Assembly: GCA_905612495.1 (NCBI GenBank)
Contig: CAJQSF010000042.1
Span: 1-56,718, forward strand
From: an uncultured Candidatus Pelagibacter sp.
GTDB lineage: Bacteria; Pseudomonadota; Alphaproteobacteria; Pelagibacterales; Pelagibacteraceae
Direction: 5' to 3'
Length of the DNA stretch: 56,718 nt
This document shows, in pieces, positions 397 through 53,484 of this stretch. Each line of letters starts with the position of its first letter. Within the stretch, counting starts at the first letter, position 1. The position numbers were made by a program, and so were the translations under genes. Below the pieces are notes generated by a model. It was not told the DNA's origin and did not search any database. It worked only from the letters and a program-made list of their open reading frames with translations.

Positions 397-436
397 GGGC
401 GAATGGCGGAATTGGTAGACGCGCTGGTCTTAGGAA
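397..436 (+). pseudogene. 5' half of host tRNA-Leu(UAG), interrupted by prophage
   Basis: GGGCGAA-TG-GCGG-AATTGGTAGACGC-G-CTGGT-CTTAGGA; pairs with the 3' half at 39903-39957 (ACCAG stem, TTCGCCT acceptor, CCA). Confidence 0.93.
427..436 (+). repeat. attL core (gtcttaggaa)
   Basis: Identical to 39903-39912; at anticodon stem-loop of tRNA-Leu. Confidence 0.85.
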
Positions 437-534
437 AGAACCACCCCACACACATACATTCACTTCTGCATATTCTTCTTCAACACCAACGTCTTTTTTT
501 TAAACAATCAATGTATGCACTAGTGGATAGTTTC

Positions 535-661
535 TGCAACAAATGCAACAAAACTACTTCTTTGCTGTATTTTTATTGCAACAAGAACCACAAGTGCATG
601 TACTTAACTTTAAGGACAAGAACACTATGAGTACATCAGAACAAAAGACTTTACTGCAACA
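535..661 (+). promoter_or_regulatory. Putative integrase arm-type sites, left (TGCAACA at 535, 544, 577, 655)
   Basis: Clustered heptamers, inverted relative to the three copies near attR. Confidence 0.45.
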
Positions 662-1610
662 ACAACTAGAGGAATTAGTTAAGGTTGGAGTAGGTGGTAA
701 GTTTAAGAATGAGAACACTGAAGATTATGTAGCTAAGATTGAGGAAGAAATTGCCTTCGAAGAAGCCATGATTAGAGGTGGAATAACTAGGTATCAAAAG
801 CTCATCAAAGATGCAGTTGTTGATAGTCAAGAAAGTACGACCCTATATGGAATAGTACTACAGCAGAAATATATCACTGAATTATCGGCTATGATTAATG
901 ATGAGGTTAAGACAATGACTTCAGGAGTAGCAGGTAATAGGCAGACAGCTTTAAAGCTATTATGCCAGTGTTTGCCCAAATCAGCATTTATCAACGAGGA
1001 GTTCATAACGAATAATCCTAATGTATGGGACACAGTAAGTCTTATTGCATTGAAGAATGTGATTGATGGTATCTCTGCAGAAACCACCCTTAACAAATTA
1101 GCTATCAAATTAGGTACAGCACTTATGTTGGAAGCTAAAATAACCATCTTCAAAGATGAGGAAAAGGACAAGTATAATCAGGTAGCTAAAAGACTTACTG
1201 GTAAGAACATTCCACAGAACGCAAATAGATACCTCTATAAACGTAAGGTTTGGACTTACTGTATGAATAAGCACAACCTGCAATTTGATGATTGGTCTAA
1301 AGAAAACCAGTTACATCTTGGTGTTAAGATTGTTTCCTTATGTGAAAAGCTAGGGTTGGTTAAACATCAGAATAGAAAATCTAATAAGATTAAAACTATT
1401 TGTTATGTTGAAGCTACACCTAAAATCATAGAGGAAATCAAGAACTTCAATATTAAGAATGAAGCTCTTTTCCCTAAATACCTACCAATGTTGATGCCAC
1501 CAAGAGAATGGGAAAATCCTTTTGTCGGTGGATATTATGGCAAGAAACATAACTACAAACAATCAACAGCTAAAGAAATCAGTCAATCACTTAATAAGGA
1601 GAATATCTAA
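627..1610 (+). CDS. T7-type RNA polymerase, N-terminal domain subunit
   Basis: Start moved to ATG 627 (MSTSEQ..., upstream SD-like aagga). C-terminal part (LHLGVKIVSLCEKLGLV...; PPREWENPFVGGYYG) matches T7 RNAP ~240-300. Confidence 0.85.
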   Translation: MSTSEQKTLLQQQLEELVKVGVGGKFKNENTEDYVAKIEEEIAFEEAMIRGGITRYQKLIKDAVVDSQESTTLYGIVLQQKYITELSAMINDEVKTMTSGVAGNRQTALKLLCQCLPKSAFINEEFITNNPNVWDTVSLIALKNVIDGISAETTLNKLAIKLGTALMLEAKITIFKDEEKDKYNQVAKRLTGKNIPQNANRYLYKRKVWTYCMNKHNLQFDDWSKENQLHLGVKIVSLCEKLGLVKHQNRKSNKIKTICYVEATPKIIEEIKNFNIKNEALFPKYLPMLMPPREWENPFVGGYYGKKHNYKQSTAKEISQSLNKENI

Positions 1611-3277
1611 TGCACTACAATTTAGTCAAAGCAAGTAATAGAAGATACCTAGAAGAACTTAAAAACCTAGCTAAGGAAATGCCTGTCGTTTACCAATCGG
1701 TAAATATCATGCAACATACTGAGTGGGTTATTAATAAACCTGTATATGAGGTTATTAAACAATGTATGGATAATGACTTTCCATTAGGTAAGTTACCAGT
1801 AAATCCACAGGCAATAGAACTTCCTATTAAGCCTGTAGATATTTCTACAAATCCTGAAGCTCTAGTTAAATGGAAAAGAGAAGCATCTAAAGTTTACTCT
1901 AATAGGTCTAAACAAAACTCTAAATTTATTCAGGTTAGACAAATAATGGCAGAAGCTAAAATGTTATTAGAGAAAAAAGGTTTCTTCTATCCATATCAAT
2001 TAGACTTTAGAAGTAGAGTATATCCTAAACCTGCAATGTTAAGTCCACAGTCAGCAGATTATAGTAGAGCTTTATTAACTTTTAAATTTGGAAAAAGAAT
2101 TGGAGATAATTTTGATATACTTGCAGTAGCAGGTGCAGGATTATTTGGAGAGGTTGATAAAGAAGAACTTGATGTAAGAGTTGGTTGGATAAAAGCACAC
2201 ATGGATAAAATTATTGAATGTGCAACAGCTCCATTAGAACATACTTGGTGGTGTGATGCAGATAAGCCTTTTTGTTTCCTAGCATTTTGTTATGAGATGA
2301 AAGCGTACAGTGATAGTAATTTTGATAGTAGTTTTATAACCACTCTACCAATACAAGCAGACTGTAGTAACAGTGGACTGCAACACTATTCAGCTATGAT
2401 GCGAGATGAAGTAGGTGGTAAAGCTACTAATCTAGTACCAAGTAATAAACCCAGTGATGTATATAATTTAGTAGCAATAGAGGTTACTAAAAAACTTCAA
2501 GCAAGAACTGATGAGTTAGCAACCAAATGGTTAGCTTATAAAATAGACAGAAAGATATGTAAGAAACCTGTGATGTGTTTACCTTATTCACTTACAAGGT
2601 ATTCCTGCAGACAATATCTAGAAGACCATGTTGCTAAAGAGTTTACTGAAAGAGGTACACAGCATGAGTTTGGAGATGACCTGTTTAAAGCTACTGCTTA
2701 CTTAACGCCTATAGTTTGGGAAGCCATAAATGATGTAGTTGTTAAAGCTAGAGACATTATGGATTTTCTGAAAAATATAGCAAGGCTAGTTGCTTCAGAG
2801 AACTTACCTGTATGTTGGTCTACACCACTAAACTTTCCAGTTCAGATGATGTGTTACAAAAAGGAAAGTAAAAGAGTTAAAACTAAAATGGGTGATAGCA
2901 TTGTTAAGTTATCTATTGCATCAGAAACTAATATTATAGATAAAAGAAAAACTGCACAAAGTGTATGTCCTAATTTTATTCATTCATTAGATGCAAGTGT
3001 TTTACAATTAGCTGTAGTGAAAGCTAAAGAAGCAGGAGTTGATAACTTCAGTATGATACATGACAGCTTTGGCTGTACCACACCTGACAATAGGATTATG
3101 GCAGATGCTATTAGAGATGCTTTCTGTGAAATTTATAATGAAGATGTTTTATTAAATTTTGCAAATGAGATGAAAGCTATGCTGTCTGAAAAGAACCTAA
3201 AGAAATTTCCTACTATGCCAATTAAAGGAAATTTAGATTTACAAGAAGTCAAGAAGTCTGTATTTTTTTGTATCTAG
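1610..3277 (+). CDS. T7-type RNA polymerase, catalytic (palm/fingers) subunit
   Basis: DFRSRVYP, ADCSNSGLQHYSAMMRDEVGG (motif A), RKICKKPVMCLPYS (motif B K/Y), MIHDSFG (motif C). Own SD AAGGAG at 1596-1601. Confidence 0.95.
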   Translation: MHYNLVKASNRRYLEELKNLAKEMPVVYQSVNIMQHTEWVINKPVYEVIKQCMDNDFPLGKLPVNPQAIELPIKPVDISTNPEALVKWKREASKVYSNRSKQNSKFIQVRQIMAEAKMLLEKKGFFYPYQLDFRSRVYPKPAMLSPQSADYSRALLTFKFGKRIGDNFDILAVAGAGLFGEVDKEELDVRVGWIKAHMDKIIECATAPLEHTWWCDADKPFCFLAFCYEMKAYSDSNFDSSFITTLPIQADCSNSGLQHYSAMMRDEVGGKATNLVPSNKPSDVYNLVAIEVTKKLQARTDELATKWLAYKIDRKICKKPVMCLPYSLTRYSCRQYLEDHVAKEFTERGTQHEFGDDLFKATAYLTPIVWEAINDVVVKARDIMDFLKNIARLVASENLPVCWSTPLNFPVQMMCYKKESKRVKTKMGDSIVKLSIASETNIIDKRKTAQSVCPNFIHSLDASVLQLAVVKAKEAGVDNFSMIHDSFGCTTPDNRIMADAIRDAFCEIYNEDVLLNFANEMKAMLSEKNLKKFPTMPIKGNLDLQEVKKSVFFCI

Positions 3278-3314
3278 GTATATGCAGTAGTGCATGATTA
3301 AGTTCCCCTTATAG

Positions 3315-3334
3315 CTAACTGAACGAACAGTTAG
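3315..3334 (+). other. Hairpin ctaactg-aacgaa-cagttag in RNAP-ssb intergenic
   Basis: Perfect 7-bp stem, 6-nt loop. Confidence 0.5.
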
Positions 3335-6718: not shown

Positions 6719-8485
6719 ATGAAATTAATACTAGATATAGAGACCAATGGGTTTCTTGATGTCCTAGATAAAATTCATTGTATGGTCTTCAGAGATGTAG
6801 ATACTCAAAAAGTATATTCCTATAATCCTGACCAAATCAATGAAGGTCTAAACTTACTAAAGAAAGCTACCTTAATTATAGGTCATTCAGTAATGGGCTT
6901 TGATTTACCAGCTATTGAGAAAGTAACTGGCTACAAATATGAAGGAGCAATCCTTGATACATTACTATGTTCTAGGCTTATTTGGTCAAACATGGTGGAA
7001 GTTGATTACATTAAGAAGGACTTACCACCCAAACTAATAGGTAAACATTCAATAGAAAGTTGGGGTTACAGATTAGGTCTTCGTAAAGGGGACTTTGCAC
7101 AAACAGCTACATTTGATGTTTGGACACAAGATATGCAGGACTACTGTGAAAGAGATGTTGAAGTAACTTATCTTTTATACAAACAAATTGAGAAGAAAAA
7201 TTATTCTAAAAAAGCTATCAAATTAGAACATGACTTTGCACACTGGATTATAAAACAAGAGCAAGGTGGTGTGGACTTTGACGAGACGACTGCTCAGTCG
7301 CTTTTCTTGTCCTTGACTAAACAAAGACTGGAGATTGAACAAAAACTTTCTGCAGTCTTTGGTAGTTGGAATAAGTCTATTGGTTTTAAAACTTATAAAA
7401 GAGATAATAAGAAAAGAGGAATAGTAGCAGGAGTACCTGTTGAACAATTCAGAACTGAAATATTTAATCCTAATTCTAGAGACCACATTGCAGATAGATT
7501 AAAGACATTAGGTTGGAAGCCAAAATCATTTACAGCTACAGGGAAACCTGAAGTAAATGAGAAGGTTTTAAAATCATTACATTATGATGAAGCAAAATTA
7601 ATATCAGAACACTTACTAATACAAAAAAGACTTGGTCAGCTAAGTGAAGGCGAACAAGCATATTTAAAATTAATCACAAAGGAGAAAAAAATTCATGGAA
7701 AAGTTATCACAAACGGAGCTGTTACAGGTCGCTGTACGCACTTTAATCCAAACCTTGCACAGGTCGTTGCAAAGGGTTCAAAGTATGGCACTGAGATGCG
7801 TAGCCTTTTCGTTGCTCCTACCAATATGGTTATGTGTGGTATTGATTTTTCTGGTTTGGAGCTTCGTGTGTTGGCAAGTTACTTGTGTAATTATGACAAT
7901 GGAGATTTTGCGAAAACATTACTTGAAGCAGATATACATTCCAAAAATCAGCAAATACTCGGATTGGAAACTCGTGCTAAAGCTAAAACTTTTATTTATG
8001 CTTACATCTATTCTGCAGGAAATGAACGCATCTCTGAAATACTTGAAGTCTCTCTTACAGAAGCCAAAAGAATAAGACAAACTTTTGAGAAAGCATTACC
8101 TGCATTAATCAATTTAAAAAATGCAGTAGCAGTAAAGTATAGAAATCAAAAATGGATATATGGTTTAGACAAAAGAAAACTAATGTGTAGAGCTGAGTAC
8201 AGTTCTTTAAATACATTAATACAATCAGCAGGAGCTTTACTAGTTAAAGCAGGAACAGTGATAGTTAATAATGATTTACAACAAGCAGGTTTTGTTTGGG
8301 GTAAGGATTATAGAATGGTCTTACATGTGCATGATGAAATGCAGTTTGTAGTTCATAAAGATAAAATTGAAGAATTTAAAAGTATAGCCAGTGGGTTATT
8401 TAATAAGACTAAAGATTACTTTGGTTTCAAATGCGATTTAGCAGGAGAAATTAAAGTCGGTAGAAATTGGAGTGAAACACACTAA
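6719..8485 (+). CDS. DNA polymerase, family A (T7 gp5-like) with 3'-5' exonuclease
   Basis: LILDIETNGF exo motif, CERDVEVTY; MCGIDFSGLELRVLA (A), RAKAKTFIYAYIYSAG (B), LHVHDEMQF (C). Confidence 0.97.
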   Translation: MKLILDIETNGFLDVLDKIHCMVFRDVDTQKVYSYNPDQINEGLNLLKKATLIIGHSVMGFDLPAIEKVTGYKYEGAILDTLLCSRLIWSNMVEVDYIKKDLPPKLIGKHSIESWGYRLGLRKGDFAQTATFDVWTQDMQDYCERDVEVTYLLYKQIEKKNYSKKAIKLEHDFAHWIIKQEQGGVDFDETTAQSLFLSLTKQRLEIEQKLSAVFGSWNKSIGFKTYKRDNKKRGIVAGVPVEQFRTEIFNPNSRDHIADRLKTLGWKPKSFTATGKPEVNEKVLKSLHYDEAKLISEHLLIQKRLGQLSEGEQAYLKLITKEKKIHGKVITNGAVTGRCTHFNPNLAQVVAKGSKYGTEMRSLFVAPTNMVMCGIDFSGLELRVLASYLCNYDNGDFAKTLLEADIHSKNQQILGLETRAKAKTFIYAYIYSAGNERISEILEVSLTEAKRIRQTFEKALPALINLKNAVAVKYRNQKWIYGLDKRKLMCRAEYSSLNTLIQSAGALLVKAGTVIVNNDLQQAGFVWGKDYRMVLHVHDEMQFVVHKDKIEEFKSIASGLFNKTKDYFGFKCDLAGEIKVGRNWSETH

Positions 8486-24715: not shown

Positions 24716-26827
24716 ATGTCATATCTAGCACAAGTAACCTATACAGGTAATGGAAGTACAACAGGCTACGCTTTACCATTTTCGTATATTGCCAGTTCAC
24801 ATGTAAAAGCATTTATAAACAATGTATCAAATACAGCATTTACTATTTCAGGAAGTACATTAACATTTACTTCTGCACCTGCTAACTCAGCAGTTATTAG
24901 ATTAGAAAGACAAACACCTACAGATGCAAGATTAGTTGATTTCACAGATGGTTCAGTTTTAACTGAAGCTGACTTAGACCAATCAGCAGACCAAAACTTT
25001 TTTATAGCACAAGAAACATCAGACAGTAACCAGTCAGCAATGACTATAGGTACAGATGATAAGTTTGATGCTCAATCTAAAGTAATTAAGAATGTAGCAA
25101 ATCCTACTAATAATAATGATGCAGTTAATAAAACTTATTTAGAAAACACTTGGTTATCGACAGCTAACAAAACAGCTCTAACAACAGTAGCTTCAAATAT
25201 TTCAGCTATAAATACTGTGAACAGCAGTGCGACAGCTATAAATACTGTAAACTCAAATTCTACAAATGTAAATTTAGTTGCAGGTTCTATAGCTAATGTA
25301 AACACAGTAGCAGGAGATATTGCAAAAGTAATTGCAGTAGCAAATGATTTAGCAGAAGCAGTTAGTGAAGTAGAAACAGTTGCAGATGATTTAAATGAAA
25401 GTACTTCAGAAATTCACACAGTTGGAACTAATATTGCTAATGTAAATATAGTTGGACTAGCTATTGCTAATGTAAATACAGTAGCAGGATTAAGTTCAGC
25501 TATTGGTACAGTAAATGGTAATGCTTCTAATATAAATATAGTAGCAGGAAATAATTCAAATATTAATACTGTAGCAGGAGCAAATTCGAACATAACAGCA
25601 GTTGCAGGTATTGCTTCTGATATATCTGCAGTAGAAAATATTAAAGCTAATGTAACTACAGTTGCAGGAATGTCTTCAGCTATTAATACTGTAAATGGTA
25701 ATTCATCAAATATAAATGCAGTAGGTGGTGCAATAGCAAATATTAATACAGTTGCAGGTGCTAACTCTAATATTTCTACAGTTGTAACTAATTTAGCTTC
25801 AATAAATAACTTTGCTAATATTTATAGAATTTCAAGTTCAGCACCAACTAGTTCACTTAATACTGGAGATTTATGGTGGGACAGTACAAACAATATTTTA
25901 AAAGTTTATGGTGCTTCAGGATTTCAAAGTGCAGGTTCTTCAGTTAATGGAACTTCAGCTAGATTTAAATATATAGCTACAAACAACCAAACAACTTTTA
26001 CAGGTTCAGATGCTAGTTCAAATACTTTAGCTTATGACCCTTTATATTTAGATGTTTATTTGAATGGTGTTCACTTAGACCCTACAGATTTTACAGCTAC
26101 AAATGGTAGTTCAGTAGTATTAGCATCAGGTGCTTCTACAGGAGATATTCTTTATATAGTTGGATTTGGTACATTTAATGTAGCCAGTATCAATGCTTCA
26201 ACAGCTTTAACTAGTGGTAAAGTACCAGTAAATAAAGGTGGTACAAATTTAACTTCTTTAGGTTCAGCAGGACAAGTTTTAAAAGTAAATGCAGGTGCAA
26301 ATGCTTTAGAATATGGACAAGCTAGTTCATCAGAAGTTTATGGTTTTGAAAAATATTATAATCCATCTACTTTAGTTAAAACAGTAACAGTAGTTTCAGT
26401 TGGTGGAGCAAATAAATATTTTATAGATGGTGTTCAACAAGATACTTTAGATTTATATGAAGGTAATACTTATGTATTTAATTATCCTTCAGCACACCCA
26501 TTTAAGTTCTCAACAACTTCAAACGGAACTCATGCAAGTGGTTCTGAATATACAACAGGTGTAACTCATAATAGTTCAACACAAGTAACAATCGTAGTAG
26601 CTACTAATGCACCTACGCTTTATTACTATTGTTCTTCTCACTCAGGAATGGGTGGAACAGCAAACACACCAAATCCTGCTTTAAATAGTGTGAGATATAT
26701 TACGACCAATCAAGGTCAAGATAACATCAGTGAAAGTCAATATGCCAACTTCTTTGATGTTTTATTTAGTGCTTCAGGCTTTGTCTTTAGCATTAATTCA
26801 AATGGCAATTTAATATCAACAATATAA
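24716..26827 (+). CDS. Tail fiber (T7 gp17-like N-terminus)
   Basis: MSYLAQVTYTGNGSTTGYALPFSYI..HVKAFINN; repeated INTVAG/SNI heptad-like units. Confidence 0.9.
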   Translation: MSYLAQVTYTGNGSTTGYALPFSYIASSHVKAFINNVSNTAFTISGSTLTFTSAPANSAVIRLERQTPTDARLVDFTDGSVLTEADLDQSADQNFFIAQETSDSNQSAMTIGTDDKFDAQSKVIKNVANPTNNNDAVNKTYLENTWLSTANKTALTTVASNISAINTVNSSATAINTVNSNSTNVNLVAGSIANVNTVAGDIAKVIAVANDLAEAVSEVETVADDLNESTSEIHTVGTNIANVNIVGLAIANVNTVAGLSSAIGTVNGNASNINIVAGNNSNINTVAGANSNITAVAGIASDISAVENIKANVTTVAGMSSAINTVNGNSSNINAVGGAIANINTVAGANSNISTVVTNLASINNFANIYRISSSAPTSSLNTGDLWWDSTNNILKVYGASGFQSAGSSVNGTSARFKYIATNNQTTFTGSDASSNTLAYDPLYLDVYLNGVHLDPTDFTATNGSSVVLASGASTGDILYIVGFGTFNVASINASTALTSGKVPVNKGGTNLTSLGSAGQVLKVNAGANALEYGQASSSEVYGFEKYYNPSTLVKTVTVVSVGGANKYFIDGVQQDTLDLYEGNTYVFNYPSAHPFKFSTTSNGTHASGSEYTTGVTHNSSTQVTIVVATNAPTLYYYCSSHSGMGGTANTPNPALNSVRYITTNQGQDNISESQYANFFDVLFSASGFVFSINSNGNLISTI

Positions 26828-27422: not shown

Positions 27423-28055
27423 ATGGCAATTATTTCTAATGCTACAACCATTGCAGACAATGGAGCATTTTCAGTTAGTCTAGGGGCTTTAGTTCATATT
27501 AAAACTTTAACTGCAAGTAATTCTGGAACATTGTCATTCGTACATGGTTCATCATCAGTAATTTTTGATAATACTTATCCAATTTATAAGTTTGAATTTA
27601 TTAACTGTCACCCAACTGCACATGATGCAAATGCGGTTGGTGGATTAAATTTTAATGTAACAACAGATGGTAGTAATTATAATATAGCAAAAACAAGTTC
27701 AGCTTTTACTGCTTATCATAAGGAAACTGGTGGTTCTGCTGGAATGGGTTATAATGTTGGAAATGATTCCGCTCAAGTAACTGGTGCAATACCTCTATCT
27801 GGTCAAATTATTAATGACAATGATGCTAGTGTAAGTGGAGAATTATATATTTTCAATCCGAGTAGCACAACTTTCTTAAAACACTTTATAACCTCTACTA
27901 ACAGAATGGATATGAGTGGTGGGCATAGATACCAAAATCTTTATCATATTGCTGGTTATGCAAATACTACAAGTGCTTTAACTGGAGTTCAGTTTTCTAT
28001 GTGGTCAGGAAATATAGGTGCTGGAAAAATAAAATTATATGGAGTGAAAGATTAA
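27423..28055 (+). CDS. Putative receptor-binding/fiber protein, paralog 1
   Basis: Shares LTASNSG.LSFVHG...INCHP...SSTTFLKHF...GYANTT core with next two ORFs. Confidence 0.65.
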   Translation: MAIISNATTIADNGAFSVSLGALVHIKTLTASNSGTLSFVHGSSSVIFDNTYPIYKFEFINCHPTAHDANAVGGLNFNVTTDGSNYNIAKTSSAFTAYHKETGGSAGMGYNVGNDSAQVTGAIPLSGQIINDNDASVSGELYIFNPSSTTFLKHFITSTNRMDMSGGHRYQNLYHIAGYANTTSALTGVQFSMWSGNIGAGKIKLYGVKD

Positions 28056-28056
28056 T

Positions 28057-28671
28057 ATGACAGTTATATCAAATGGAACAAATTTAATAAACAATGGTGC
28101 TTTAGATAGTGCAATACCAGTCGGTAAGATGACTTTAATTAAAACCTTAACTGCTTCTAATAGTGCAAATTTATCATTCGTACATGGTGCAAGTGGAGTT
28201 GTTTTAGATGGTACTTATGACACCTATGTATTTAAGTTTATTAATTGTCACCCAGTAACAGATAACCATTATTTTTTAGTTAATTTTAGAGATGGTGGTT
28301 CAGCATATGATGCTTTAAAAGCAACAACTTTTTTTAGAGCAAGACATAATGAAGGTGATGGCGGTGATGCATTAGAATATGTTGGTGGTGATGATTTAAG
28401 TAATACATCTGATTACCAACGGATAGGAAATGGAGTAGGTAATGATAATGATGAAAGTATTTGTGGAGAACTTACGTTAATTTCTCCAAGTTCCACAACT
28501 TTTGTAAAACATTTTATGGTAACAACTTCAATGAGTGAAGCAACCCCAGCACATAATCAAACATTTGTTGCTGGTTATTGTAATACCACAACAGCTATTG
28601 ATGGTGTTCAATTTAAATTTGGAAGTGGAAACTTTGACGGAGTAATAAAATTATATGGAATAGGAGGATAA
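28057..28671 (+). CDS. Putative receptor-binding/fiber protein, paralog 2
   Basis: Same shared core. Confidence 0.65.
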   Translation: MTVISNGTNLINNGALDSAIPVGKMTLIKTLTASNSANLSFVHGASGVVLDGTYDTYVFKFINCHPVTDNHYFLVNFRDGGSAYDALKATTFFRARHNEGDGGDALEYVGGDDLSNTSDYQRIGNGVGNDNDESICGELTLISPSSTTFVKHFMVTTSMSEATPAHNQTFVAGYCNTTTAIDGVQFKFGSGNFDGVIKLYGIGG

Positions 28672-28715
28672 ATGGTTTTTAATAAATTAAAAGAAATTCA
28701 CAAAGGAGTTTTCAC

Positions 28716-29333
28716 ATGGCATTAATTAGTAACGGTACATCAATATTTGACAATGGTTCTATGGCGACTGGACTTGCTAGTAGCATGGTACATATTAAAA
28801 AGCTAACAGCTAGTAACTCTGGTAGTTTATCTTTTGTTCATGGTAGTGGTGGTGTAGATTTTTCTACTCACAAAGAATATTTATTTACATTTAATAATAT
28901 TCACCCAGCAACTAACGGTTCACATTTTAGTTTTAATTTAAGTATAGATGGTGGAAGTAATTACAATGTAGCTAAAACAACTACTGCTTTTAGACCATTT
29001 CATTATGAAACTGCAAGTGACACACCAGAGTTAGCTTATCAAGCTGGTTCAGATTTAGCACAAGGCACAGGCTTTCAAAACATTGCTGAAAATTTAGGTT
29101 CTGCAAATGATGAATGTTCAGCTGGTCATTTAACTCTTTATAATCCTAGTAGCACAACTTTTACTAAACATTTTATGTCAAGAATTAATCTTAATCATTC
29201 TTCATCTTCTCCAGCAACTGTAAATTGGTATATTTCAGGATATGGAAACACAACAAGTGATGTTGATGCAGTCCAATTTAAAATGACAAGCGGAAATTTT
29301 GATGGAGTTATTTCTCTTTATGGTATCGCTTAA
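28716..29333 (+). CDS. Putative receptor-binding/fiber protein, paralog 3
   Basis: Same shared core. Confidence 0.65.
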   Translation: MALISNGTSIFDNGSMATGLASSMVHIKKLTASNSGSLSFVHGSGGVDFSTHKEYLFTFNNIHPATNGSHFSFNLSIDGGSNYNVAKTTTAFRPFHYETASDTPELAYQAGSDLAQGTGFQNIAENLGSANDECSAGHLTLYNPSSTTFTKHFMSRINLNHSSSSPATVNWYISGYGNTTSDVDAVQFKMTSGNFDGVISLYGIA

Positions 29334-38363: not shown

Positions 38364-39641
38364 ATGGTACAAGTTGCACTTACTAGTATGTTGCCATCAG
38401 GTATTAGACTTCGTAAAGGAAAGAAGTTTGATAGTTTGATTGTGCAGACTAGGAAAAAAGTAGTTGATGCAGGTGGTAAGGAACATACGATTGCTGATGC
38501 TAGAACTGTTAAGTTCAGTGTTAAAAATCCTGCAACAGATGCTGACTATACAGAAGCGTTTAAGTTAGCATTAGAAGAAGCTAAAAAAGAAAAACTTTTA
38601 GCTATTCAACATATCGCTGTTCATGGAGTAGAGAGTACAAAAGCTCCTAAACAAAAAAGTGTTGGAACAATAGGAGAGGTCTACGATTTAGTTTTTAAAT
38701 CTAGATGGCAGGGTACACCACAAGAAAAAGGTGTAAACATTTATGCCAGTGACCTGTTCGCATTTTTTCCTAAAAGTATGACAATGGAAGAACTGCACCA
38801 AAGAGTAAACTACGATAATTTTATTTTGTTCATGGAGAAAAGAATTACTGAACGAAAAATGAATAATCGTGGCACTTACAACAACTCTAGTACCAACAGA
38901 AGGTTCATGATAGTTAGAGTGTGTACGTCTTATGCTATTGAGTATGGCTTGATGCACAAAGATAAAGTGATGAACACTGACCCTAGAGAAGTTGCTAACT
39001 ATGGTTGGAAGAACCTTAAAGTTAAGGCAATTAAGAAAAAGAATGTCTTAAATAAAGAGGAAGAAAACAACATGATTGAGGAAATGAAAAAGCGTGGAGA
39101 CCATGAGTTCGCTGATGAGTTTGCTTGGAATGTTGATGTTGGTATGAGATATGAAACAGAGATGCTTAATTTTACAATTAAAGATATTAATTGGAAGAAA
39201 AAGACAATCTGTTTTTGGAGAGAAAAAACCAAAGAGTATAGTGAAAACATTCCTTTATCTAAAAGAGCATGGAGTATTGCTACAAGATATAAAGATGTTG
39301 CACTTTCAAAAACAAGTCAAAGAATGTTTGGTCATTCCAAGCATAAGATAGAAGCCTTGTTCAAAAAGTATAGAGACATATTCAGTGTTGCAGATTTTAC
39401 ACCTTATGTAACCAGACGAATGTTTGGAACTAGACTTGCTGAAAGAGGTGTTAATCCAAAAATCATAGCAAGAATGATGGGACATGCGTGTACTGAAACA
39501 GCACAAAAATACTACATTCAAACTACTGATAAGGGTATGGAACGAGCTGTTAAATTAACTGAAATATCAGATGAACAGTTTGATAGTTATTTAGATAATC
39601 AAAACAGTAACTATGGTCACAACTCTAAAGGGTTGATATAA
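38364..39641 (+). CDS. int: Tyrosine-type integrase
   Basis: VDVGMRYETEMLNFTIKDI; YVTRRMFGTRLAERGVNPKIIARMMGHACTETAQKYY. Confidence 0.93.
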   Translation: MVQVALTSMLPSGIRLRKGKKFDSLIVQTRKKVVDAGGKEHTIADARTVKFSVKNPATDADYTEAFKLALEEAKKEKLLAIQHIAVHGVESTKAPKQKSVGTIGEVYDLVFKSRWQGTPQEKGVNIYASDLFAFFPKSMTMEELHQRVNYDNFILFMEKRITERKMNNRGTYNNSSTNRRFMIVRVCTSYAIEYGLMHKDKVMNTDPREVANYGWKNLKVKAIKKKNVLNKEEENNMIEEMKKRGDHEFADEFAWNVDVGMRYETEMLNFTIKDINWKKKTICFWREKTKEYSENIPLSKRAWSIATRYKDVALSKTSQRMFGHSKHKIEALFKKYRDIFSVADFTPYVTRRMFGTRLAERGVNPKIIARMMGHACTETAQKYYIQTTDKGMERAVKLTEISDEQFDSYLDNQNSNYGHNSKGLI

Positions 39642-39692
39642 AAGATGAACACTGTTAATTACTCACAACCAGATAAATGTTTATTTGCAAGT

Positions 39693-39777
39693 GGGGGATT
39701 GGCGGAACTGGTAGACGCATACGCCTTAGGAGCGTACGACTTCGGTCATGAGAGTTCGAGTCTCTTGTCCCCTACCA
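39693..39777 (+). tRNA. Prophage-borne tRNA-Leu(UAG), CCA encoded
   Basis: GGGGGAT/GTCCCCT acceptor, D arm GCGGAACTGGTAGACGC, TACGC-CTTAGGA-GCGTA anticodon arm (TAG 39727-39729), long variable arm, GAGAG-TTCGAGT-CTCTT T arm. Confidence 0.95.
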
Positions 39778-39854: not shown

Positions 39855-39902
39855 GAAAGTTTAAGAAAAGTAAAGTGGGTGTGGTTTATTCGAGATTGGT
39901 TA

Positions 39903-39912
39903 GTCTTAGGAA
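39903..39912 (+). repeat. attR core (gtcttaggaa)
   Basis: Identical to 427-436. Confidence 0.85.
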
Positions 39913-39957
39913 CCAGTATTGAAAGATGTGAAGGTTCGAGTCCTTTTTCGCCTACCA
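39903..39957 (+). pseudogene. 3' half of host tRNA-Leu(UAG)
   Basis: CTTAGGA-ACCAG-TATTGAAAGATGT-GAAGG-TTCGAGT-CCTTT-TTCGCCT-A-CCA complements 397-436. Confidence 0.93.
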
Positions 39958-51297: not shown

Positions 51298-53484
51298 ATG
51301 AAAAGATTAATATTTGCGTTAGTTCTAAATATCTTTGCAAATTTTAATTACGTTACAGCCGAAACTATAACGATGCCGTCAAGTTTGACAGCTGATACCA
51401 CTGCTTTTGTTTTATTATCTTCTTCAGGAACAACACCAAGTATCAGTGGATATACGGCAACAGATTTATTAGCAACTATTGTTGCATCAGCTGGAACTTT
51501 AATTGTTACAACTACCACAGGTTTGGAACAAGCTTCTGGGTATTGTGATTATACTGCAGATAATTCCAGTGAACCTACTAATTGCAAATTAGAAGCTAGT
51601 GATCATCCTGAAATAGGATTTATAGGAACTCAGGCTGAAATAAATGCTGCTCTAGCTACTTTATCTTTTAAAGGTGATGGATCTACTGGATCACCAACTG
51701 TTACACTTTCGATAACACCTGCTGGTAATAATTATAATTCAGCAAATGGTCATTATTATAAAATAGTTAACGATGATGAGATTTCTTTTACAGATTCAAT
51801 AGCAGCAGCTGAAGGATCTACATATAATGGATTATCTGGTTATCTTGTTAGTATAACTTCAGAAGCAGAAAATAATTTTTTAAATGCAAAAGTGAATCAA
51901 AATGCTTGGATTGGTGGTTCTGACAAAGCCTCATTAACTTCAAACTCTCATTCAGTAACCGAAGGAACTTGGGAATGGATATCAGGTCCTGACAACGGAA
52001 AAACTTTTTTTTGTCAAGTAGCAATTAGCGGTAAAGCTAATGCTGCAGATAGTGATTGTACAGTAGCTACTGGTTACTCTTATAATAATTGGAGAAATGC
52101 CGAACCCAACGATCACAGCAGCAATACAACTGGAGAAGAAGATTGTGCGCACATGAGAAGTGATGGAGAGTGGAATGATTTTCCATGTAATTCAACAAGT
52201 GTAGATTATTACATTATTGAATATGGAGGAACTGCAGGTGAAACAGCAACAACTTCTGGATTAACAATATTAACAATAGAATCTTTAGAAGCAAGTGGAA
52301 GTACGCACCAAGCATTTAATGACAAACAATTATCTGGAATAGTGGAAGCTCAAACTGAGAGCATGAAAAGACATATGTTTAATTCGACTAATTCTATTAT
52401 GGATCGAATGGAACAGTTCAGAAGAACCGGGGATAACAAAGGTTTACAGTTAAATGATTTTAGATTGTCACTCATTGATCAAGGAGTAGATAATCATACT
52501 CATGCCAAACTAGCAAAACATTATCTACAAAAATACTCTAAAGAAGTTTCTGATAAAAAAGGATTTAATCTTACAGAGAAAAATATAGAAAAATTTATTA
52601 CTGAACTACCACTTTCAAAATATATGAAACAAGAATTTGGTTTAAAGCCTAAAAAATGGGTTATGTGGAGTGCAGGCTCAATATCTCAAGGAGGTCTTAA
52701 CTTTAGTGTTGGTCAATTAGGTAGAAAAAATAAATCTAATGGATTTACAGTTGGCGCAGATTTAGACTTGAGTGATAATTCCTTATTAGGGTTTGCTTTA
52801 AGGGATGAAACTGAAGATGTAGAGGTTAGTACAAATGGAACTAAGTATAAATCTGATAATTCAACATTATCATTTTATAACACTTGGAAAGCTGATGATG
52901 AAAACTATTTAGATACTTTCATAGGATTTGGGAAAACAAAACAAGCAACTACAAGAATTGTTGATGTTACAAATAAGACTAAAGTTACGGGTGAATTGAA
53001 AAGTAAACAAGCTTTTGGTGCAATTAAGTATAATTTCAAAAAAAATTATAAATTAATTAATCTTAACAATTATTCCATAGTAAATTTTGGTTATAGCATG
53101 TTTGACTCTTATTCAGAAAAAGGTGACAGTAATTTAAAATTAAAATTTGATGATCGTGATCTAAAATCTTATTCTCTTTCTATAGGATCCTTAATAGAGT
53201 CTAAAATAGATTTGAAAAATTCAAAATTTATTCCATATTTAAGAATTGATATAACGGAAGATCTGACTGAAGCTTCTAATTTAAAAGCAAATTATATCTC
53301 AAGCCCCTCTAATCAATATAGCAAAAGTATTAGTAAACATTTCTCAACTATTATTCGGGCAGAGACTGGATTTGATTGGAATTTTAGAAATGATTGGAAT
53401 ATATCATCCACTTTAGAAAGAATTGATAAAAATGGTTTAGGACATCAAAATAGTTTAAAATTTAATGCAAATAAATCTTTTTAG
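51298..53484 (+). CDS. Secreted autotransporter with C-type-lectin-like domain
   Basis: Signal peptide; GYLVSITSEAENNFL...AWIGGSD...WEWISGPDNG...YNNWRNAEPNDHSS..EDCAHM..GEWNDFPC; C-terminal beta-barrel-like domain ending KFNANKSF. Confidence 0.85.
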   Translation: MKRLIFALVLNIFANFNYVTAETITMPSSLTADTTAFVLLSSSGTTPSISGYTATDLLATIVASAGTLIVTTTTGLEQASGYCDYTADNSSEPTNCKLEASDHPEIGFIGTQAEINAALATLSFKGDGSTGSPTVTLSITPAGNNYNSANGHYYKIVNDDEISFTDSIAAAEGSTYNGLSGYLVSITSEAENNFLNAKVNQNAWIGGSDKASLTSNSHSVTEGTWEWISGPDNGKTFFCQVAISGKANAADSDCTVATGYSYNNWRNAEPNDHSSNTTGEEDCAHMRSDGEWNDFPCNSTSVDYYIIEYGGTAGETATTSGLTILTIESLEASGSTHQAFNDKQLSGIVEAQTESMKRHMFNSTNSIMDRMEQFRRTGDNKGLQLNDFRLSLIDQGVDNHTHAKLAKHYLQKYSKEVSDKKGFNLTEKNIEKFITELPLSKYMKQEFGLKPKKWVMWSAGSISQGGLNFSVGQLGRKNKSNGFTVGADLDLSDNSLLGFALRDETEDVEVSTNGTKYKSDNSTLSFYNTWKADDENYLDTFIGFGKTKQATTRIVDVTNKTKVTGELKSKQAFGAIKYNFKKNYKLINLNNYSIVNFGYSMFDSYSEKGDSNLKLKFDDRDLKSYSLSIGSLIESKIDLKNSKFIPYLRIDITEDLTEASNLKANYISSPSNQYSKSISKHFSTIIRAETGFDWNFRNDWNISSTLERIDKNGLGHQNSLKFNANKSF

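Follow-up and report, generated by a model that had tools for sequence, protein, structure and literature searches.

A T7-like RNA polymerase encoded as two adjacent genes in a SAR11 prophage and its relatives

Is a phage RNA polymerase (RNAP) gene that appears in two pieces a damaged gene, a gene read by frameshifting, or two genes whose products form one enzyme? The question is raised by two ORFs on the forward strand of a 56,718-nucleotide contig from an uncultured Candidatus Pelagibacter sp. (CAJQSF010000042.1, analyzed whole and hereafter called the window), which belongs to an 844-kb genome that is 63% complete. The first ORF (N; positions 627 to 1610, 327 aa) and the second (C; 1610 to 3277, 555 aa) lie exactly where a preliminary description had placed them. 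At their junction (1595 to 1612, forward strand), the last A of the N stop codon TAA (1608 to 1610) is the first base of the C start codon ATG (1610 to 1612), forming TAATG, and an AAGGAG Shine-Dalgarno (SD) sequence (1596 to 1601) ends 8 nt 5' of that ATG. The C frame is open from 1598, directly after a TAA at 1595 to 1597; the two frames overlap by 12 to 13 nt, and no slippery heptamer lies within this overlap. Re-reading the junction confirmed all of these details as first described. An in-frame ATG at 543 is an alternative N start that would give a 355-aa ORF, while the start at 627 is common to many relatives.

Domain searches assign the two ORFs to complementary parts of a T7-like RNAP. 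The Pfam family RPOL_N matches the N ORF (5e-12) and RNA_pol matches the C ORF (7e-99). The profile phrog_414 (816 positions; full-length phage RNAPs) is tiled nearly end to end, by N over positions 4 to 264 and by C over 263 to 814. When aligned to T7 RNAP, the N ORF corresponds to residues 114 to 288, within the N-terminal domain of promoter binding and RNA exit, and the C ORF to residues 312 to 880, with the thumb, palm, fingers and motifs A, B and C. T7 residues D537, K631, Y639, H811 and D812 are conserved in C (D251, K318, Y326 and D485 being the C counterparts of D537, K631, Y639 and D812), which bears out the earlier claim that the catalytic motifs are intact. R632 is replaced by K and G640 by S, and the DxxGR counterpart is DFRSR (C residues 132 to 136), with S replacing G. 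Equivalents of the AT-rich loop and the intercalating hairpin align to N, the hairpin being predicted as two strands (245 to 251 and 257 to 263), and the specificity loop aligns to C. Predicted structures agree with these assignments: the C model (pLDDT 88) matches T7 RNAP with a TM score of 0.87 to 0.89, and the only significant structural matches of the N model are T7-like RNAPs. The window thus has both domains, the three motifs and a matching polymerase fold, distributed over two polypeptides rather than one; it encodes a two-polypeptide variant of the family, like N4 RNAPII.

The two ORFs belong to a phage. The left 40 kb of the window is a prophage of the HTVC025P/HTVC011P group, integrated at a tRNA-Leu gene. 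At its left end is the 5' part of the host tRNA-Leu (402 to 439, forward strand) with a 10-nt core, GTCTTAGGAA. At its right end (38364 to 39777, forward strand) are the integrase gene (38364 to 39641) and a complete phage-borne tRNA-Leu(TAG) (39693 to 39777). The tRNA-Leu 3' part, again with the core GTCTTAGGAA (39890 to 39957, forward strand), follows, and then the genes for trigger factor, ClpP/ClpX and Lon. The att core, at about 10 nt too short for a k-mer search, was recognized by eye through comparison of the left end with 39904 to 39913. From left to right the prophage carries the RNAP genes, SSB, endonuclease I, amidase, primase-helicase, DNA polymerase, head-tail adaptor, tail and terminase genes before the integrase. 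This matches the gene order of the group III pelagiphages (RNAP, SSB, endonuclease I, lysozyme/amidase, primase and DNA polymerase, with an integrase) as well as their mode of integration (a tRNA-Leu(TAG) site beside trigger factor, with a tRNA-Leu of their own). The same lysogen layout is described for HTVC025P, HTVC011P and uv-Fonsiphage-EPL in a passage of Chen et al. 2019 (PMC6811365).

Three other features of the window were recorded. Three tandem paralogous genes of ~205 aa each, all phrog_14820 (unknown function), lie near the tail genes (27423 to 29333). Diverged repeats in 30-nt phase (25203 to 25797) sit inside a 703-aa ORF (24716 to 26827) that is likely a repetitive tail-fibre-like protein. 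In the host part, a streamlined SAR11-type genome, an ORF beside tRNA-Thr combines a C-type lectin domain with an autotransporter beta-domain (51298 to 53484).

Perhaps the split merely reflects a recent mutation, or a mistake in sequencing or assembly? The fused record of HTVC011P does differ from split relatives by a single base. Against this, a second, separate metagenome contig (L001, 99 to 100% identical to the window) has the identical junction, and the split is found in 117 loci, in several cultured isolates and in single-cell genomes. All 117 IMG/VR and phage loci that hold both halves are split, with the HTVC011P record as the sole fused exception; since loci were picked for their resemblance to the window, to Chosvirus and to HTVC011P, these counts are not frequencies in nature. 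The GenBank records of relatives likewise annotate two RNA polymerase genes. Same-type RNAPs occur in other uncultured Pelagibacteraceae genomes (a strong match in 3 genomes besides the window's own, in a sample of 297 from the same family), and both single-cell and metagenome-assembled SAR11 genomes carry the split form. A split shared by separate contigs, isolates and single-cell genomes rules out an error, and we regard the chance of one as negligible. The preliminary description had named fusion in all relatives as the observation that would overturn it; the opposite was seen, every relative in the clade being split except HTVC011P.

The nearest phage records to the window's RNAP are HTVC025P, HTVC041P, an uncultured Mediterranean phage, Eyrgjafa/Gjalp and HTVC011P, at 65 to 69% identity. 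Chosvirus is ~40% identical, and the fused Autographiviridae enzymes are below 39%. HTVC019P, proposed earlier as the type for comparison, is a fused relative at 37%; because the window groups with HTVC025P, HTVC041P and Eyrgjafa, HTVC019P is not the closest one. In 22 aligned representatives, Chosvirus included, the cut falls in one alignment column, between T7 residues 291 and 292. A break near the boundary of the N-terminal and polymerase domains had been predicted and is indeed found there, slightly ahead of the residue (~300) first given. In the aligned representatives, H-(Y/F)-N follows the C start codon. The cut has cost no homologous residue, and N has acquired a variable tail.

The DNA at the junction is far less constant than the protein. 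Ten layouts occur over the 117 loci: overlaps of 1 to 32 nt, gaps of 1 to 5 nt, and inserts of 131 and 497 nt. The 1-nt overlap of the window is the layout at 35 loci, followed by overlaps of 29 nt (27 loci) and 32 nt (20 loci), a 1-nt gap (17) and an 11-nt overlap (7); a 131-nt gap and a same-frame stop are found at 3 loci each, a 5-nt gap and a 20-nt overlap at 2 each, and a 497-nt gap that holds small genes in HTVC025P. The earlier question of whether TAATG is conserved thus divides: the split is conserved throughout, the junction DNA is not. A cut fixed in the protein and a junction drifting in the DNA are what two separate translation products lead one to expect. Small ORFs of unknown function lie between the RNAP halves in some relatives, at L027 1208 to 1340 (one of ~45 aa) and L081 4513 to 4913; those of HTVC025P are 48 and 85 aa long. 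Insertion of a homing endonuclease may have caused the split; in the window the halves directly adjoin, with nothing inserted.

Might the two frames nevertheless be joined during translation, by programmed frameshifting or by readthrough of a stop, to yield one polymerase? The N and C frames do overlap by 13 to 35 nt in many members, and in three same-frame members (L040, L041 and L073) a single stop separates them. However, the required shift is not constant: 62 distinct junctions divide 44 to 18 between the two possible shifts. At two distinct junctions (those with the 131- and 497-nt inserts) there is no common open window, and one distinct junction has a same-frame stop. A slippery heptamer is present at 1 of 65 distinct junctions and is not conserved. 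In contrast, signals for separate initiation are general. At all 63 distinct C starts the start codon is accompanied by an SD-like match of 4 nt or more, compared with 24% of the same genes' internal ATGs, and a match of at least 5 nt is found at 87% of these starts versus 3.5% of the internal ATGs. The varying shifts, the closed windows and the near absence of a slippery heptamer rule out programmed frameshifting as a general mechanism, and a fused product made at the junction is a very improbable explanation of the locus. In the three same-frame members, a little readthrough could also yield some fused protein. Together with the 117 split loci, the conserved SD at the C start and the varying frame relation uphold the original reading of two polypeptides rather than a frameshift error.

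How often did the split arise? All split phages form one clade in trees of C (support 100/100) and of N (100/98), with the fused enzymes of Pelagivirus, LUZ100, BB8, Pasto and T7 outside it, although the program warned that some outgroup branches in these trees are long. When HTVC011P is left out, one change on the tree explains the split. These comparisons indicate that the split is ancient and arose once, with deep-sea Chosvirus included.

HTVC011P (KC465900, junction near position 6935; L084:4984-5012) is the sole fused member, and it is nested within the split clade. Compared with 99%-identical split contigs, its junction is short of exactly one A, and ATGCACTACAA, the C start, persists there in a different frame. 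The fused junction had no exact match among the 2.9 million viral contigs of IMG/VR, whereas the split version of the same junction had 18. We conclude from these observations that the HTVC011P fusion is either a very recent re-fusion or a record error; its nested position, its out-of-frame ATGCACTACAA and its one missing A rule it out as the ancestral fused state. If the record is right, fusion would seem to be tolerated. Since the only "unsplit" member rests on a one-base difference, caution is needed before reading it as an ancestral state.

Perhaps only C works, and N is a leftover of a vestigial or partly dispensable polymerase? N is the more diverged half in distant comparisons (32 to 36% identity to Chosvirus-type proteins, against 41 to 46% for C). 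Both genes are under purifying selection, however, and the median dN/dS is lower for N (0.078) than for C (0.118), values that are rough because synonymous divergence is high (median ~0.75 to 0.98) and that come from 92 non-independent pairs. Moreover, N is present at every locus whose contig extends far enough upstream, and it can be aligned through the promoter-contact elements. We consider a vestigial N highly unlikely.

We therefore favor, and think very probable, a translationally coupled two-subunit T7-like RNAP, made from two genes that descend from a single ancient split between the equivalents of T7 residues 291 and 292. The prophage would produce the enzyme as two polypeptides: N, the counterpart of the T7 N-terminal domain with its AT-rich loop and intercalating hairpin, and C, with the active site and the specificity loop. 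The C start, which overlaps or adjoins the N gene and has its own SD, would be used by ribosomes re-initiating after N or by newly joining ones. N and C would then come together as a single enzyme acting at phage promoters; the promoter-contact elements are divided over both chains, and a promoter-specific enzyme should need the two together. The split itself occurred once, in the lineage from which both Chosvirus and the Stopavirus/Fussvirus/HTVC025P group descend. We infer translational coupling, N-C heterodimer assembly and polymerase activity, the assembly from precedent and conservation. The modest confidence of the N model (pLDDT 70) and its unstructured tail count against the two-subunit reading, as do the possible readthrough in the three same-frame members and, should its record be right, the fused HTVC011P.

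In T7 RNAP, one domain refolds as the enzyme passes from initiation to elongation, and the cut falls close to the edge of that domain. This raises the idea that N is a dissociable, sigma-like initiation factor, which binds C to recognize the promoter and detaches in the course of elongation. The placement of promoter-contact elements on N and of the active site on C would suit such a role, and separate genes would permit independent control. Overlapping genes, on the other hand, point to near-equal production of the two proteins. The best match of the N model, albeit one of modest confidence, is the elongation-complex form of T7 RNAP (TM 0.60, versus 0.37 for the promoter complex 1cez), so N fits the elongating enzyme too. 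A sigma-like N is unlikely on this evidence; if true across the clade, it would let temperate phages of SAR11 control their own transcription by way of subunit assembly.

If the two-subunit enzyme is promoter specific, where might it act? Directly 3' of the C gene lies a conserved noncoding element (3281 to 3323, forward strand), which we propose as a candidate promoter of the split RNAP. It is conserved across Fussvirus/Stopavirus-type members and contains ATTAAGTnCCMCTTATRGCTAAC. Its end, CCACTTATAG, resembles the end of the T7 promoter. The element scores 32 bits, compared with at most 0.3 anywhere else in the prophage, and a prophage-wide search for it found a single strong copy.

The closest known counterparts are the group III pelagiphages themselves (HTVC025P and uv-Fonsiphage-EPL; PMC6811365), which belong to the same phage group and share the two-part RNAP gene and the tRNA-Leu(TAG) site beside trigger factor. 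One sentence of Chen et al. 2019 (PMC6811365) reports that the RNAP genes of HTVC019Pvirus group III are all fragmented into two parts except in HTVC011P, and the authors observed no unsplit reads for their phage; hence the preliminary suggestion that the split may be undescribed was wrong. The passages of that paper on these genes give no cut site, translation signals or mechanism, treat HTVC011P as simply unsplit, and do not link Chosvirus to the fragmentation. What we add is the exact cut site, the arrangement of the two translation starts, a single origin that takes in Chosvirus, the evidence for selection, and the reinterpretation of HTVC011P as one base away from near-identical split relatives; parts of this may have been published already.

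The preliminary description had also mentioned a natural split in N4 and working engineered splits of T7 RNAP, and the literature supports both. N4 RNAPII (gp15 plus gp16, Schitoviridae) is a naturally two-polypeptide T7-like RNAP and a biochemically proven heterodimer, whose advantage is called unclear in a review (PMC4496689). Its cut lies after the thumb and DX2GR, which leaves these two and the N domain on gp15 and places motifs A, B and C on gp16; the enzyme has a truncated N domain and needs the gp1 and gp2 cofactors (PMC4496689). The cut in the window comes before the thumb and DX2GR rather than between DX2GR and motif A, which rules out an N4-type split. T7 RNAP (gp1) is collinear with both subunits and shares their catalytic residues and, judging from the models, their fold, but it is one chain; the window's enzyme is two, with the R632K and G640S replacements, and N is extended at its C terminus by a variable tail. 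Segall-Shapiro et al. 2014 (PMC4299498) describe a T7 RNAP that functions when its fragments are co-expressed, with five regions tolerating a split; those splits are artificial, and among them are sites at 67, 179 and 601. In the pelagiphages, by comparison, the promoter-binding domain of a T7-like RNAP is separated from the catalytic body naturally and stably over evolution, at a position unlike that of N4; the SAR11 bacteria that these phages infect are very abundant. Dozens of diverged N/C pairs are available for asking whether the domains act in trans, how specific their pairing is, and why splitting has been tolerated or selected.
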